Origin: Porphyrobacter sp.
GTDB lineage: Bacteria; Pseudomonadota; Alphaproteobacteria; Sphingomonadales; Sphingomonadaceae
Direction: 5' to 3'
Length of the DNA stretch: 5,500 nucleotides
Assembly: GCA_021732945.1 (NCBI GenBank)
Contig: JAKFWB010000423.1
Coordinates: forward strand, 1 to 5,500
Each line of letters starts with the position of its first letter. Position 1 is the stretch's first letter. Made by a program: the position numbers and the translations under genes. Below, piece by piece: positions 1-5,500 of the stretch. The notes below the pieces were generated by a model, which was not told where the DNA came from, ran no database searches, and was given only the letters and a program-made list of their open reading frames with translations.

Positions 1-386
1 GCCCAAGCTGGCACTGCTGGGTGACTGCGCCTGCCACAAGACGCTGACCCTGGATTCTTTCTTATCCCGACTGAATGATGCCAAAGAGCAGTGGATTGCC
101 ATGTTTTCCAGAATAATGATCAATGCTCAGCCCAGACCGTTGGGAGTGTGTTGCTGCGTTGTAGAATTGCCGAGCTGCGTAGCGATCTGCTGCGTCTCAA
201 GCCGCAAGTTCAAATGCACACCCTAGACGATGCTACAAGCCATGGTTCTTGTCGTTTGATCTGGCAGATTCTGTCACGCCCGATAGGTCAAGAACAGACT
301 GGAGTTAGTATTGTTACCGCCAAAATTACTGACCACGCCTTGCCCACGTCAGCGTCGGTCATAACGAATAACGGTCAAAACGCTTT
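1..386. other. AT-richer stretch with no identifiable gene
   Basis: I find no convincing gene here. By hand count GC is about 52%, clearly below the GC-rich genes to the right. A frame open from the left edge (2-226, plus) begins with protein-like sequence (LALLGDCACHKTLTLDSF) and about 70% GC at third positions over its first 34 codons, then turns into a Cys-rich, unlikely tail and stops. A second plus frame from a GTG at 91 to a TAA at 388-390 could encode 99 residues, but its third positions are only about 50% GC, it has no clear ribosome binding site, and it runs 4 bases into the end of mtnP. The minus strand is broken by stops in the frames I read. It may be a decayed gene or the edge of an acquired segment. 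I recognise no family. Confidence 0.5.
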
Positions 387-1253
387 CTAACCGAACAATC
401 GCCCCGCCACCGCATCCAACCGGGCCATGACTTCGGGATCATGTTCATCGGGCGCGGTGATGACGGCGTCGTCCAGCGCGGTGTCGATGGGGGACGCATC
501 CCGCTTCTTCGGCAGCGCGGCGAGGAAGTTACTGACGACTGCCTGCGCGAGTGCGCCGTTGGCCTGCATCTGCACGATCACCTGTGCCACATCCACCGCT
601 TCGCCATCGCGCCAGCAATCATAATCGGTGACCATGCCTACCAGCGCATAGGGCAACTCTGCCTCACGCGCCAATTTGGCTTCGGGCATGGCGGTCATGC
701 CGATCACATCCGCGCCCCAATGGCGGTACATCCGGCTTTCGGCGCGGGTGGAAAATTGCGGGCCTTCCATCGCAAGATAGGTCGCGCCCACGGCAACCTT
801 GCCCTTGGCCTTAGCTGTGGCTTTGGCCGCCATGTCCGACAGGCGCGGGCAGACCGGATCGGCCATTGAGACATGGGTGACAAACCCGCTGGTGTAGAAG
901 GTGCTGGGGCGATGCACTGTGCGATCGATGAACTGTTCGACCACGGCGAACCGCCCCGGCTCAAGCTCTTCACGCAAGGATCCCACCGCGCTGATCGCCA
1001 GAATATCGGTGCAGCCTGCGCGCTTCAGCGCATCAATATTGGCGCGCGAATTCAGCTCGGTCGGACTGATCGGATGCCCGCGGCCGTGGCGCGGCAGAAA
1101 GCGCACCTTCACCTCGCCAATCCGGCCGCACAGAATCTCGTCCGAGGGCGCGCCCCAAGGTGTATCAATCGCGATCCATTGGGCGTCCTCAATGCCGTCC
1201 ATGGCATAAAGGCCCGATCCGCCAATAATCCCGATGCACCATTCGCTCGCCAT
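387..1253 (-). CDS. mtnP: S-methyl-5'-thioadenosine phosphorylase
   Basis: This cytosolic enzyme splits methylthioadenosine with phosphate into adenine and 5-methylthioribose-1-phosphate, the entry to methionine and purine salvage. The 288-residue length is normal for the PNP/MTAP phosphorylase family. Visible motifs are GGSG at 11-14 and RHGRGH at 55-60 (phosphate side), the family block SAVGSLREE at 88-96, QFIDRT at 107-112, MEGPQFSTRAE at 162-172, and GMTAMPEA at 185-192, whose Met186 and Thr187 match the ribose/phosphate residues of human MTAP. TDYDCW at 209-214 supplies the Asp210/Asp212 pair that selects 6-aminopurines. True purine nucleoside phosphorylases carry Asn there, so MTAP is preferred over PNP. 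The ATG is preceded on the minus strand by AAGGGG, 12 bases upstream. It lies 35 bases after the GST gene on the same strand and is probably cotranscribed. The C-terminal 40 residues are family-variable. Confidence 0.95.
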   Translation of the reverse strand: MASEWCIGIIGGSGLYAMDGIEDAQWIAIDTPWGAPSDEILCGRIGEVKVRFLPRHGRGHPISPTELNSRANIDALKRAGCTDILAISAVGSLREELEPGRFAVVEQFIDRTVHRPSTFYTSGFVTHVSMADPVCPRLSDMAAKATAKAKGKVAVGATYLAMEGPQFSTRAESRMYRHWGADVIGMTAMPEAKLAREAELPYALVGMVTDYDCWRDGEAVDVAQVIVQMQANGALAQAVVSNFLAALPKKRDASPIDTALDDAVITAPDEHDPEVMARLDAVAGRLFG

Positions 1254-1288
1254 GTGTGCGACCTGCCCCTTGTTTTCGTTGTGAGGGC

Positions 1289-1993
1289 TTAGGTCAGGTC
1301 GAAGGGAGTGGGCAAGGCCCTGCGGACCATCTTTTCCGCCGCCGCGTAAGGCCCGGCGATAGCGGGGCGCGCTTGCATCGCGGCAAAATGCGCGGCGAGG
1401 GCAGGCCAGCGCTCCAGCGGAGTATCCGCCACCAGTGATACCTGCATCAGCACGCAGGCGACGGTAATGTCGGCAATCGAGAGCGCGTCGCCTGCGAAGA
1501 AGGCCCGGCCGCCGAGCCGCGTTTCGAGAACGTCAAAGATTGGCGGCAACTGGTTGGCCCAGGCATCGCGCGCCTTGTCGAGCCCCGGCTCCTCACCCTT
1601 GCTGACCGCAAAGAAGATCGGCCGGAAGATGCCGAGGCCCCCTGCCATCGCCAGCGCAGTGTCTGCATATTCCTCGATGAACAAGGCCTCGCCCAGCGCC
1701 ATCGGATCGGCGGGATAGAGCGCTGGGGTGGGGTGCTTTTTCTCAATCATGGCGCAGATTGCCGAGCTGTCGGCGATGGTGCCCGCCACCCCTTCTTCGG
1801 CCACGGACCGATCGCGCAGCACCGGGATTCGCTTCATAGGGGAAATCTCGCGGAACCATGCAGGCGGGTCGAAGACGTTGATCGCCTCGACTTCGTATTC
1901 CACGCCCTTTTCAATGCAGAGCCCCGCCACCTTGCGCACAAACGGCGATACCGGGCTGCCATAGATGACCAGATCGGGGCGGGAATCACTCAT
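1289..1993 (-). CDS. Glutathione S-transferase family protein
   Basis: This is a 234-residue cytosolic protein with a two-domain GST fold. It is expected to conjugate or reduce electrophilic compounds with glutathione; the substrate cannot be told. The N-terminal thioredoxin-like domain (about 7-95) shows SPVSPFVRK at 13-21, where Ser16 is the likely thiol-activating residue, the cis-proline in IPVL (Pro57), and the glutathione-binding ADSS turn at 74-77. The all-helical C-terminal domain contains the folding motif FFAGDALSIAD, with an N-capping Ser162 and Asp165. The frame stays open upstream to an ATG at 2053, but I start at 1993 because AGGAG lies 7 bases before that ATG and the extra 20 residues (Arg-rich, unlike GST) are not expected. 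It stops with TAA 35 bases before mtnP. A functional link between the two enzymes is not established. Confidence 0.9.
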   Translation of the reverse strand: MSDSRPDLVIYGSPVSPFVRKVAGLCIEKGVEYEVEAINVFDPPAWFREISPMKRIPVLRDRSVAEEGVAGTIADSSAICAMIEKKHPTPALYPADPMALGEALFIEEYADTALAMAGGLGIFRPIFFAVSKGEEPGLDKARDAWANQLPPIFDVLETRLGGRAFFAGDALSIADITVACVLMQVSLVADTPLERWPALAAHFAAMQARPAIAGPYAAAEKMVRRALPTPFDLT

Positions 1994-2000
1994 TCGGGCT

Positions 2001-2005
2001 CTCCT
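2001..2005 (-). promoter_or_regulatory. Ribosome binding site fixing the GST start
   Basis: On the minus strand the sequence reads AGGAG, 7 bases before the ATG at 1993. This supports the shorter 234-residue GST over the 254-residue version starting at 2053. Confidence 0.75.
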
Positions 2006-2095
2006 AAAGTGCGTCTCTCGCGGCCTCCATAGGCCAGCGCAGGAATAGCGCAATCGCTAGGCGAAGCGGGCCGCCGCGCCGCCTACACTCACCAT

Positions 2096-2127
2096 CAACG
2101 CGGGCGTTGCGTTTTCCAATGCAACGC
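2096..2127. promoter_or_regulatory. Palindrome/hairpin in the divergent GST-ALDH intergenic region
   Basis: The arm GCGTTGCGTT (2104-2113) and the arm AATGCAACGC (2118-2127) pair as a ten-base stem with one G-T mismatch and a four-base loop. A second copy of the pairing sequence, CAACGC at 2096-2101, could compete for the same left arm. It lies 54-85 bases upstream of the aldehyde dehydrogenase start and about 100 bases upstream of the GST start. It could be an operator for a dimeric repressor serving one or both genes, or an RNA hairpin in the leader. No clear -35/-10 pair could be placed around it, so the regulatory role is inference. Confidence 0.35.
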
Positions 2128-2180
2128 GCCACCTTTGCGGGGCGAGAGACGAATCCCCATTCGACGAGAGAGGAATAATC

Positions 2181-3608
2181 ATGGTCACCCAGTACAAGAA
2201 CCTGATCGGCGGCAAGATGGTCACGACCGACCGCATGCTCGACGTGGTCAACCCGGCGACCGAGCAGGTGATCGGCCAGGTCCCGGCTTGCGGCAAGGCC
2301 GAACTTGACGAAGCCGTCGCCGCCGCGCGCGCCGCGTTCAAGACCTGGAAGAACACCCCCATCGAAGAACGCCGCGCCGCGATCATGGCGATTTCGGGCG
2401 CGATCAAGGCCAATGCGGAAGAACTCTATCGGCTGCTCACCAGCGAGCAGGGCAAGCCGCATGATCAGGCCAAGGGCGAAATCTACGGCGCTGCGGGCAT
2501 GAGCGCTGCGCAATCGACCCTCAGCCTTGAAGACGAAATCAACGAGGATAGCGACACGCGGTTGAGCCGCACCCGCCGCGTGCCGGTGGGCGTGGTCGGC
2601 GGGATCGTGCCGTGGAATTTCCCGGTGATGATGGCGATCCAGAAGATCGCGCCCGCGATGCTGTCGGGCTGCACCATCGTGCTGAAGCCCTCTCCCTTTA
2701 CCCCGCTGACGACTTTGCGCATCGCTGAACTGATCGCGGACAAGGTGCCGGCTGGTGTGGTCAACATCATCACCGGCGAAGACGATCTCGGCCCGCTGAT
2801 GACAAGCCACCCCGATATCGACAAGATCACCTTCACCGGCTCCACCGCGACCGGAAAGAAGATCATGGAAGGCGCGTCTGCTGACCTGAAGCGCATCACG
2901 CTCGAACTCGGCGGCAACGATGCCTCGATCGTACTGCCCGATGCCGATCCCAAGAAGGTCGCCGAACAATTGTTCTGGTCGAGCTTCTCGAACGCCGGAC
3001 AAATCTGCGTCGCGGCCAAGCGCGTCTACATCCACGAGGATATCTATGACGAGCTGTCCGCGGCCATCGTCGAATATGCCAAGACCGTCACCGTGGGTGA
3101 CGGCGCACAGCAGGGCACGGGCGTCGGCCCGATCCAGAACAAGAAGCAGTATGACCGCGTGCTTGAGCTGATCGAGGACGCCAAGGATAATGGCTACAAG
3201 TTCCTGCTCGGCGGCAATGCCGACCCCTCGGGCACTGGCTACTTCGTGCCGCTGACGATCATCGACAACCCGCCCGAAGATGCGCGGATCGTCGCCGAGG
3301 AACAGTTCGGCCCGGTCATGCCGCTGATGAAGTTTTCGACCGAAGAAGAAGTCATCGCCCGCGCCAATGCGTCTGAATATGGCCTTGCGGGGGCGGTGTG
3401 GACCGGCAATCCGGACAATGGCGTGAAGATCGCCGAACAGCTCGAAACCGGCACGGTGTGGGTCAACTAATACCTCCACCTGTCCCCCTTCGCGCCGTTC
3501 GGCGGGCACAAGCAATCGGGCTTCGGCGCCGAATATGGCAAGGAAGGCCTTAAGGAATTCACTTATTCGCAAGTGATTACAGTTAAGAAGGACAATGTGC
3601 CTGCTTGA
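2181..3608 (+). pseudogene. Aldehyde dehydrogenase interrupted by an in-frame TAA
   Basis: An NAD(P)-dependent aldehyde dehydrogenase, which oxidises an aldehyde to the acid in the cytosol; the substrate is unknown. The ATG at 2181 follows AGAGAGGA with good spacing. Family landmarks are PWNFP at 144-148, cofactor-binding Lys169 in VLKP, FTGSTATG at 218-225, the general base Glu242 in LELGG, the nucleophile Cys276 in NAGQIC (34 residues later, as is standard), and EEQFGP at 373-378. The frame stops at codon 430, TAA at 3468-3470, right after GTVWVN. The same frame then continues for 45 codons, starting [17 protein letters not shown], to a TGA at 3606-3608. Together this is the usual length of about 475 residues. 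The lost tail contains the conserved PFGG-K-SG block, needed for the catalytic and oligomer interface in this family, so the truncated protein is probably inactive. No frameshift is present and the tail is not decayed, so the stop is recent, a sequencing error, or read through. Confidence 0.9.
3468..3470 (+). other. In-frame TAA inside the aldehyde dehydrogenase gene
   Basis: The codon replaces a variable residue between GTVWVN and [12 protein letters not shown]. One base change to CAA, AAA or GAA would restore Gln, Lys or Glu. The following base is T and the next codons (TAC CTC) do not resemble known leaky contexts, so efficient termination is expected. Confidence 0.9.
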
Positions 3609-3641
3609 TCGCGGGTGAATTGGCGGGCATCGTGTAGGCTG

Positions 3642-3673
3642 GAGCGGTTTCCGACCATTTTGACCCACCCTGA
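3642..3673 (+). repeat. Left terminal inverted repeat of the element
   Basis: Begins GAGCGGTTTCCGACCATT and matches the reverse complement of 3875-3906 at 30 of 32 positions. Pairing stops abruptly at both ends of the arm, which defines the boundary. It starts 33 bases after the TGA of the broken dehydrogenase gene. Confidence 0.85.
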
Positions 3674-3677
3674 CGGA

Positions 3678-3765
3678 GCCTAATTGGGCTGAGGGCAAGG
3701 CGCGAAGAGCGAGCGATGCAGCGCATCGTGAGCGAAGAGCAACGTAGCCCTCAGCCCAATTCGGC
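3678..3765. repeat. Inner palindromic lobe 1
   Basis: Nineteen-base arms (3678-3696 and 3747-3765) pair with a single mismatch; the core AATTGGGCTGAGGGC (3682-3696) is perfectly matched by 3747-3761. Within the loop is a small perfect hairpin, CGATGC/GCATCG (3714-3719 and 3723-3728, three-base loop). It is flanked by a direct repeat of GCGAAGAGC at 3702-3710 and 3732-3740. There is no T-run after the stem, so a standard intrinsic terminator is not supported. Confidence 0.8.
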
Positions 3766-3784
3766 CCGCCCCGTGGGGGTCGCG

Positions 3785-3869
3785 CTCTGAAGCCCGCTGG
3801 CTTCGTCATGTCGCTTGCAGGGGCAACCAGCCCCTGCTGCGCGCCATTCCTGTCCAGCGGACTTCAGAG
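3785..3869. repeat. Inner palindromic lobe 2
   Basis: Arms at 3785-3800 (CTCTGAAGCCCGCTGG) and 3854-3869 pair at 15 of 16 positions. The apex is a perfect eight-base hairpin, GCAGGGGC/GCCCCTGC (3817-3824 and 3830-3837), with a five-base loop. Stem and apex are separated by an unpaired internal region. No T-run follows. Confidence 0.75.
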
Positions 3870-3874
3870 AGCGA

Positions 3875-3906
3875 TCAGGGCGGGTCAGAATGGTCGGAAA
3901 CCGCTC
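3875..3906 (-). repeat. Right terminal inverted repeat of the element
   Basis: Ends GGTCGGAAACCGCTC and mirrors the left repeat at 30 of 32 positions. It ends 4 bases before the GGGAGG ribosome binding site of the M48 peptidase gene. Confidence 0.85.
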
Positions 3907-3910
3907 TTGA

Positions 3911-3916
3911 GGGAGG
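3911..3916 (+). promoter_or_regulatory. Ribosome binding site of the M48 gene
   Basis: GGGAGG is followed at once by three consecutive ATG codons (3917, 3920, 3923). Spacing is 0, 3 and 6 bases respectively, so the third ATG is the best-placed start. Confidence 0.7.
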
Positions 3917-3922
3917 ATGATG

Positions 3923-4702
3923 ATGCGTACACAGATCAAACTATTGGCCGCGCTTACGCCGGTGCTCACTGCGGCTGGGATGGTGGGGGCGACACTGATC
4001 GCGCCCACCGCTCCGGCGTATTCGCAAAGCTTGGGCAAAATTGTCGGATCGGCCAAGAAAGTGGCCGAGGCGGCCAGCGTTTCTGACGAACAGATCGTCG
4101 CCTATTTCGGGCAGATGTCGGACGAGATGGACCGTCAGAACCCGCTTGCGCCGGCCAAGAACCCCTATGCCGTGCGGCTCGCCAAGCTGACCAAAGGCTT
4201 GGACAGCTATGACGGGCTGAAGCTCGATATCAAAGCCTATCTCGTCGATGATGTGAACGCCTTTGCGATGGGCGATGGCACGGTGCGGGTTTACTCCGGG
4301 CTGATGGACAAGATGACCGACGATGAAGTGCGCTGCGTGATCGGCCACGAAATCGGCCATGTGAAGCTGGAACACGGCAAGAAGCGGATGAAGCTCGCGC
4401 TGCAACAGGACGCGGCGCTCAGCGTTGCGGGCACGGCCAGCAGCGGGGTGAAGCGGATCGCCGATTCAGAATTGGGCGGGTTCATTCAGGGCGTGATGAA
4501 CGCGCAGCATTCGCAGTCGGCAGAAACCGCCTCGGATGACTACGCCTTGGGCTTCATGGCGGCCAAGCAATATCCGCAGACCGCCTGCGCCACCGCGATG
4601 GATAAGCTGGCGGCGCTGGGCGGGGGCGGCGGCATTGGCCTGCTGAAAACCCACCCCGATCCGGCCAAGCGCGCCAAGCGGATGCGCAAGCAGATCGGGT
4701 GA
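3923..4702 (+). CDS. Exported M48 family metallopeptidase, LoiP/YggG-like
   Basis: A zinc endopeptidase probably acting in the periplasm on envelope proteins; the substrate is unknown. The third of three tandem ATGs is chosen from ribosome-binding-site spacing, giving 259 residues; starting at 3917 adds two Met. Residues 1-34 look like a signal peptide: Arg2 and Lys6, a hydrophobic core, then a likely cut after APAYS. DVNAFAMGDGTVRVYSGLMD (about 110-129) and the zinc site HEIGH (His142, Glu143, His146) match E. coli LoiP closely. The third ligand is Glu201 in ETASDDYA, with Asp205, and a C-terminal THPDPAKR (243-250) is typical of M48 proteins. LoiP is an outer-membrane lipoprotein, but this protein has no Cys near its N-terminus, so lipidation is not expected. 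Its TGA overlaps the next gene's GTG by four bases, which implies an operon. Its leader abuts the inverted-repeat element. Confidence 0.9.
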   Translation: MRTQIKLLAALTPVLTAAGMVGATLIAPTAPAYSQSLGKIVGSAKKVAEAASVSDEQIVAYFGQMSDEMDRQNPLAPAKNPYAVRLAKLTKGLDSYDGLKLDIKAYLVDDVNAFAMGDGTVRVYSGLMDKMTDDEVRCVIGHEIGHVKLEHGKKRMKLALQQDAALSVAGTASSGVKRIADSELGGFIQGVMNAQHSQSAETASDDYALGFMAAKQYPQTACATAMDKLAALGGGGGIGLLKTHPDPAKRAKRMRKQIG

Positions 4703-5500
4703 TTGATCCTGACACGTTGACAGCCGGGCTGGCGCGGGTGTGTGCCCGCGCTGGCCTTGGCGAGTTGGCGGACGGCGCGCCGCAGCGGCTGACCGGCGGG
4801 GCGGTGATGGAAAGCTGGCGGTTTGCGGCGGAAGGAGAGGCTTTCGTCCTGCGCCGCGCGCCGAGTGTCGCGTTTATGGATGGCCGACCTTACGGGCATG
4901 GCGTTGAGGCTGCGCTGATTAAAGCGGCGCGGGCCAAGGGCGTGACGGCTCCGGAAGTGGTCGCGGTGCTGGAGAAGGCGGACGGGCTTGGCTCGGGCTT
5001 TGTCATGCGCGCGCTGCCGGGGACGGTTGATCCCAAGATTATTTTGGCGTGCGACGATCCCGACGGGCTGCTGCGCGGCATCGCCCGCGACCTCGCCCGC
5101 ATCCATCGGCTGCGGCAGGCCGACGTGCCCGAAGGCGTGCCGGTGATGCATTACCGCGCGGCCATCGCCGACCTCAAAGCGCAGTTCATCGACGCAGGCG
5201 GGGATCGCCCGATCATTGCGCTGGGCTTGCGCTGGCTGGAGGACAATTGCCCCGCTGCCGTGGAGCCCGTGCTCAACCACGGCGATTACCGGATGGGCAA
5301 TCTTCTGGTCGAAGGCTCCACGCTGACCGGCGTGCTCGACTGGGAGATCGCCCATTTCGGGGACCGCCACGAATACTTGGCCTTCGGCTGCATGGCGGTG
5401 TGGCGCTTCGCCCGCTACGACCGGCCCGCGCTGGGCCTGGGGAACATCGAGGATTACATCGCCGCCTACGAGGCCGAGGCGGGGGTAACCATCGACCCGG
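4699..5500 (+). CDS. APH/ACAD10-like phosphotransferase family protein (partial)
   Basis: A kinase-fold protein of the aminoglycoside/choline phosphotransferase superfamily, cut by the right edge after 267 codons. The start is taken as the GTG at 4699, which overlaps the M48 stop (GTGA). The coding frame is open from there to the end, but no strong ribosome binding site is visible. An N-lobe strand FVLRRAP lies at 49-55 and a probable helix-C Glu at 70. Brenner's motif HGDYRMGN is at 194-201 (catalytic Asp196, Asn201), and the metal-binding DWE at 214-216 stands in for DFG. The surrounding GVLDWEIAHFGD resembles the acyl-CoA-dehydrogenase-linked (ACAD10/11-type) branch rather than true resistance kinases, so a hydroxyacyl or other small-molecule substrate is more likely than an aminoglycoside; this is inference. 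The following block reads GDRHEYLAF where I expect GDPHEDLAW, a modest departure. Confidence 0.85.
   Translation, partial: MIDPDTLTAGLARVCARAGLGELADGAPQRLTGGAVMESWRFAAEGEAFVLRRAPSVAFMDGRPYGHGVEAALIKAARAKGVTAPEVVAVLEKADGLGSGFVMRALPGTVDPKIILACDDPDGLLRGIARDLARIHRLRQADVPEGVPVMHYRAAIADLKAQFIDAGGDRPIIALGLRWLEDNCPAAVEPVLNHGDYRMGNLLVEGSTLTGVLDWEIAHFGDRHEYLAFGCMAVWRFARYDRPALGLGNIEDYIAAYEAEAGVTIDP

Follow-up and report, generated by a model that had tools for sequence, protein, structure and literature searches.

A gene-less, two-lobed foldback element of Porphyrobacter and its relatives, with ends that match each other and resemble those of IS630-type transposons

We analysed a stretch of 5,500 nucleotides (the window) from Porphyrobacter sp. 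(assembly GCA_021732945.1, contig JAKFWB010000423.1, positions 1 to 5,500). Between a gene for an aldehyde dehydrogenase and one for an M48 peptidase (3917-4702) lies a two-lobed foldback element of 265 bp (3642-3906; all features are given on the plus strand), which abuts GAGGGAGG (3909-3916), a ribosome-site-like stretch of the peptidase gene. The outer arms of the element (3642-3673 and 3875-3906), 32 nt long and spaced by 201 nt, are complementary at 30 of 32 positions (94%). They are flanked by TG on the left (3640-3641) and TT on the right (3907-3908), at places where most other copies have TA. The left lobe has stem strands of 19 bases with one mismatch (3678-3696 and 3747-3765). The right lobe has stem strands at 3783-3800 and 3854-3873 and, from the pairing of its bases, a perfect 8-bp apex hairpin with the 5-nt loop AACCA (3817-3837). 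The foldback with its matching ends and the two inner palindromes had already been noticed in a preliminary description, and they proved to be correct. Two features had escaped it: a small hairpin between the lobes (3769-3778) and, at the apex of the left lobe, a duplex with two tandem G-A pairs, made of GAGCGAGC (3707-3714) and GTGAGCGA (3728-3735) on either side of a hairpin with a variable loop (3715-3727).

Outside the element, the aldehyde dehydrogenase gene contains an in-frame TAA (3468-3470), where all nine relatives that we read have GAA, and the frame past this codon stays open for another 45 codons, to 3608. The TAA is either a real nonsense change or an assembly error. The first 390 nucleotides of the window have a G+C content of 51%, versus 63% in the remainder, and contain a 99-aa frame with no Pfam match.

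The predicted fold of the element is far beyond chance. As DNA, positions 3620-3930 gave -107.3 kcal/mol, compared with a mean of -62.1 kcal/mol for 100 shuffles (z -10.95); as RNA, positions 3640-3908 gave a z of -14.41 (200 shuffles). The Rfam covariance models gave no match in the window at E<=1, and two matches on six related loci, neither of them on an element. A DUF3800-VIII RNA (RF03075) scored above cut-off at L333:77-141, on the minus strand and away from the element. In titles and abstract openings, the literature on sphingomonad and Erythrobacter repeats, MITEs, Correia and IS630 elements and G-A hairpins contained no described family with this sequence, and that on Bacteroides MITEs or on covariation in MITEs no described match. 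The portion of PMC4741004 consulted was unrelated to the element. The preliminary description, too, knew of no named family with this sequence.

We searched for dispersed copies, as the preliminary description had suggested. The core of the element was matched 14 times in its own genome and was present in 31 of 114 genomes of the genus when the best seven candidates per genome were scored (24 of 93 among the high-quality genomes; a few matches were short and weak), its distribution being patchy. Rescoring of 29 core-positive genomes, with up to 27 candidates each, gave 108 core matches, orthologous pairs included. The comparisons below used the 66 copies in which the core is complete and both arms are present, and 101 distinct stretches were seen in the comparison of orthologs. 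In the 66 copies the boundaries coincide with the terminal repeats; 32 of them have TA on both sides, 26 on one and 8 on neither, the frequency of TA in the window being 1.7%. Plasmid and phage collections, one queried with the element of a relative and the other with that of the window, gave no match. Two copies from the same genome (L050 and L064, G095) lie at contig ends, where the assembly breaks into G runs inside the element.

Empty sites were sought by comparing the joined flanks of 13 loci with the 114 genomes, two candidates per genome being scored. Junctions could be read for seven loci, in 30 alignments (24 with TA, 4 with TG and 2 gapped). An eighth locus (L127) gave contiguous matches only, and the remaining five, including the window's, gave no empty site in this search. 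When the joined flanks of the window locus served as query, 10 of the 114 genomes had contiguous matches spanning the junction, and the nine empty sites that we read had CA, C or A at the junction, not TA. The window copy is present at a site that is empty in relatives, and its own flanks are TG and TT. At one locus (L105), joining the flanks produces TAATG at the junction, a sequence that resembles overlapping stop and start codons.

The element has no gene, is shorter than about 300 bp and bears terminal inverted repeats, and its family has dispersed copies bounded by these repeats, duplicated target sites and insertion sites found empty in relatives. On these tested features it qualifies as a MITE. 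The non-autonomous, MITE-like nature that had been proposed from the window is therefore supported by dispersed copies with coincident ends, by TA flanks, by empty sites in relatives and by ends that match IS630-type transposons (see below).

The arms are hypervariable between copies, with on average three pair types per position among the outer 22 pairs; within a copy, 98.0% of these pairs are Watson-Crick. When each arm was given a partner from another copy, this value was 58%. The inner arm positions (22-31) are matched to 84%, and some copies have fixed differences between left and right there. Changes could be followed at orthologous sites, since several species pairs have copies of which both flanks are homologous, the flanks of the compared orthologs differing by 3-24%. 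In eight comparisons of the first 22 positions we counted 18 mirrored and 5 single-arm changes, while independent change would give 1.24 mirrored positions. The ratio of mirrored to single-arm changes was 5:0 for L089/L090, 2:0 for L090/L143 (these two comparisons have one copy in common), 3:0 for L105/L132, 3:1 for L020/L113, 5:1 for L046/L111, 0:0 for L130/L133 and, both by eye, 0:2 for L093/L145 and 0:1 for L066/L067. These sums leave out L089/L143 (4:0), which is not independent of two counted pairs, L149/L157, whose arms could not be located, L106/L134 (not paired by the ortholog comparison), and L122/L151 and L009/L035, each with only one homologous flank. The mirrored changes, equally divided between transitions and transversions (9 each), affect 18 of 176 arm positions, i.e. 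about a tenth. They are partly clustered, falling within 3-7 bases in three of five comparisons (combined p 0.008, in a test where two of the five share a copy and where the widely spread L046/L111 is included). The unclustered L046/L111 may represent a replacement. L009 and L035 have different end classes and a homologous left flank, which may reflect either two insertions into one TA or a change of end class in place.

A search for a transposase with ends matching GAGCGGTTTCC led to IS630-type transposons. DDE_3 (IS630-family) transposases are present in 16 of the 114 genomes. No exact end pair 1-2 kb apart was found in these 114 genomes; looser IS630 ends were found afterwards with the help of the transposase. 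The IS630-type element measures about 1050 bp, has the TA-flanked ends GAGCG(G/T)TTTCC, of which only about 13 bp are common to its own two ends, and encodes a transposase that is apparently split over two frames. Of the first 16 bases in the left arm of the window copy, 14 agree with an IS630-type end (shuffle p 0.005). With the end of a transposon encoding a DUF4096 transposase, which we take to be IS5/IS427-type, this arm agrees at 8 of 16, so that the window copy does not have an IS5/IS427-type end.

For a wider comparison we used 20 IS630-type ends and 18 from DUF4096 transposons, with L069, L158 and L159 having their ends picked by eye and the spurious-looking pairs of L086, L353, L354, L365, L388 and L391 and the second pair of L371 being omitted. 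Of the 66 arms from the genus, 15 matched IS630-type ends at a shuffle p<0.01 (0.7 expected) and none matched DUF4096 ends. At the same threshold, 20 of 119 other arms matched IS630-type ends and 6 matched DUF4096 ends; 118 of these arms came from a scan favouring TA flanks, and L026 was added by hand. Thus only 35 of all 185 arms matched IS630-type ends and 6 DUF4096 ends. DDE_3 matches occur in only 7 of the 31 core-positive genomes, and resolved IS630 elements with matching ends in four of them (G057, G069, G074 and G105). A large arm class, GAGCCTGT..., had no partner among the transposon ends compared, and a second IS630-type group (L073, L078, L079, L086, L161 and L162) had no matching ends.

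The outer stems differ widely among copies that have the core in common. Agreement with DUF4096 transposon ends was found for L286 (16/16), L322 (15/16) and L026 (15/16). Three elements, L286, L322 and L228, align with all 66 elements of the genus at E<=1e-4, and their best matches start at position 28-32 in both partners and run for 130-198 bases; the apex itself had been selected by the search pattern in these three. As judged from such alignments, the core is combined, in register, with ends that resemble the termini of two unrelated families of transposons.

The pattern of the left-lobe apex was found in 38 of 397 genomes and in 17 of 96 genera of the family, while a reversed control pattern was absent from the matches listed in this family-wide genome search. 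The hosts, accounting for at least 115 stretches, include Novosphingobium, Sphingomonas, Sphingopyxis, Blastomonas, Qipengyuania and Sandaracinobacter. Many copies beyond the genus have the full two-lobed architecture with new stems, and 68 of 118 foldbacks measure 260-279 bp. Among the matches listed, 29 of 80 loci with the same apex are Bacteroidales-type MAGs according to their record titles. In 18 of these 29 loci a foldback was found, for 19 matches in all, five of which have TA on both sides (e.g. L249 and L250). This is a strong lead toward homology, not proof, as it consists of a 30-base apex selected by pattern and of a common geometry. A record titled Bacillus sp. 2B10 contains Sphingomonas-type copies (L306 and L318), and probably reflects contamination or mislabelling.

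That the arms match could be due to compensatory selection: the element would act as a structured RNA or single-stranded DNA, unpaired arms would be harmful, and second mutations would repair them. We consider this unlikely as an account of the family, and the lobes and the arms speak differently on the point. The lobe sequences are more conserved than the arms, and few parts of the family are as conserved as the left apex duplex. Its two tandem G-A pairs are kept in 61-62 of the 64 copies that could be parsed (of 66), and one of the two pairs that separate them is G-C in 38 copies and C-G in 18, as compensation would have it. In addition, G-T outnumbers A-C by 41 to 13 in the left lobe and is outnumbered by it, 13 to 30, in the right one (Fisher p 1e-5, shared ancestry being uncorrected), as though the two lobes did not fold on the same strand. 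Because G-A pairs exist on one strand only, the apex is likely read as a folded single strand, and selection on the folded strand is likely for the lobes. Against compensation in the arms, the outer 22 pairs contain no excess of G-T (9, versus 8 A-C) and show no strand preference, and over all pairs there is no strand bias of wobbles per copy (62.1 on 62 df). Moreover, with a tenth of positions mirrored and flanks differing by 3-24%, the arms do not change clearly more slowly, as strong selection predicts. The absence of a G-T excess, the share of transversions and the clustering are predicted by template switching between the arms, not by stepwise compensation through G-T pairs. Template switching is therefore the best explanation of the mirrored changes. 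Given the poorer match of the inner ten positions, such copying would act chiefly on the outer portion of the arms. As far as PMC8794818 was consulted, it sets out template switching as both maker and keeper of hairpin stems, and describes the part it plays in the upkeep of short RNA stems as 'less clear'.

The arms could also match because the same transposase binds both of them, the copies being young and mirroring only the active masters. It is in keeping with this that some arm classes match transposon ends and that the arms are most synchronous over the outer 22 bp, which would be a plausible length for a binding site. We nevertheless find it quite improbable, as mirrored changes were observed between orthologs whose flanks differ by 9-24%, which implies that they arose after insertion, unless copies were replaced, and as the two ends of the IS630 elements share so little sequence with each other. 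The preliminary description had attributed the intact symmetry to recent insertion or to selection on the fold. This was only half right: the match between the arms also persists at orthologous insertions that species have in common, and for the arms template switching fits better than either. It had also considered a large REP-family repeat. A REP is a short palindromic unit without target duplication, and a REPIN is an inverted pair of such hairpin units that spreads as a unit. A repeat of the REP/REPIN type, mobilised by a RAYT (Y1) transposase that works on single-stranded hairpins, would account for a conserved apex with strand-specific non-Watson-Crick pairs and for the presence of two hairpin lobes per element. 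A length of about 265 bp, long terminal inverted repeats, a TA duplication and a terminal match to DDE transposons speak against it, and this origin appears very improbable.

Our preferred reading, which we consider reasonably probable, is that of a gene-less, TA-inserting family with a predicted two-lobed hairpin, moved in trans by transposases, with ends kept matched by template switching. We infer the following as to which transposases act, template switching as the cause, drift between partners and the role of the apex. IS630-type transposases are predicted to move the element in trans via its outer ends, and IS5/IS427-type transposases are predicted to act on other members. During replication, one arm would be copied onto the other by template switching, so that the ends would stay matched. 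A new end sequence would thereby appear at both ends at once, which would allow the element to pass gradually from one transposase to a different one. For the conserved apex, recognition as a folded single strand is predicted. A more far-reaching version, that this is an ancient foldback superfamily in which arm-to-arm template switching rewrites both ends and switches the partner between IS630 and IS5/IS427 types, while the G-A apex crosses genera and even phyla, is put forward tentatively, as a possibility that we hold to be somewhat doubtful.

Several known repeats share features with the element. RUP of Streptococcus pneumoniae, a MITE linked to IS630-Spn1, is likewise short and gene-less, with a TA target and IS630-family ends, but is described in the part of PMC2229807 consulted as 107 bp long, with 9-bp terminal inverted repeats and highly conserved repeats. 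The present element, by comparison, measures about 265 bp, is two-lobed and has hypervariable arms, and the same core also occurs with DUF4096-transposon-like ends. The Correia/NEMIS elements of Neisseria may resemble it in short internal motifs. They too have TA at their termini, a target duplication and a long stem-loop, but are about 107 and 155 bp long with 24-bp terminal inverted repeats, and the same part of PMC2229807 describes no exchange of ends. The CIR repeats of Caulobacter and Brucella are also alphaproteobacterial and intergenic, and their RNA is drawn there as two arms and a linker; they differ by their length (about 110 bp), unpaired ends and GANTC motif, while the lobes of our element are enclosed by a 32-bp terminal stem (PMC2229807). 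MITECca01 of Cardinium is a MITE of about 240 bp with the ends of a resident IS; in the portion of PMC9769881 consulted, it has a single parental element of the IS982 family and no exchangeable ends are described.

Three features set the element apart from an ordinary MITE: one core goes with ends of different transposon families, the ends evolve in concert in place, and the left lobe has at its apex a duplex, specific to one strand, that contains two tandem G-A pairs. A template-switching foldback superfamily, if real, would explain how it comes about that MITEs have nothing but their ends in common with the transposons mobilising them. A family that combines a single core with many ends, changing in concert and in place, makes the origin of MITE ends a testable question. 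The family, with its 108 core matches in 29 genomes, is a natural record of apparent template switching in stems, which PMC8794818 proposes for RNA hairpins. It also holds a warning for those who read genomes, namely that covariation in a bacterial repeat is, alone, no proof of a selected RNA.

A small conserved protein starting at the apex, where a ribosome-site-like stretch precedes an ATG, was considered and rejected. In 14 of 192 frames a stop occurs at the third codon, the stops fall anywhere, and a 5-base loop shifts the frame in 10 of 192; no conserved reading frame starts from the apex ATG. In some copies (L046, L052, L053, L062 and L326) a single lobe is lost or shortened while the arms are kept, which indicates that the lobes are modular. 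Finally, a Sphingomonas element of 385 bp (L235) contains a related extra hairpin-like insert in both lobes, at apparently equivalent places.
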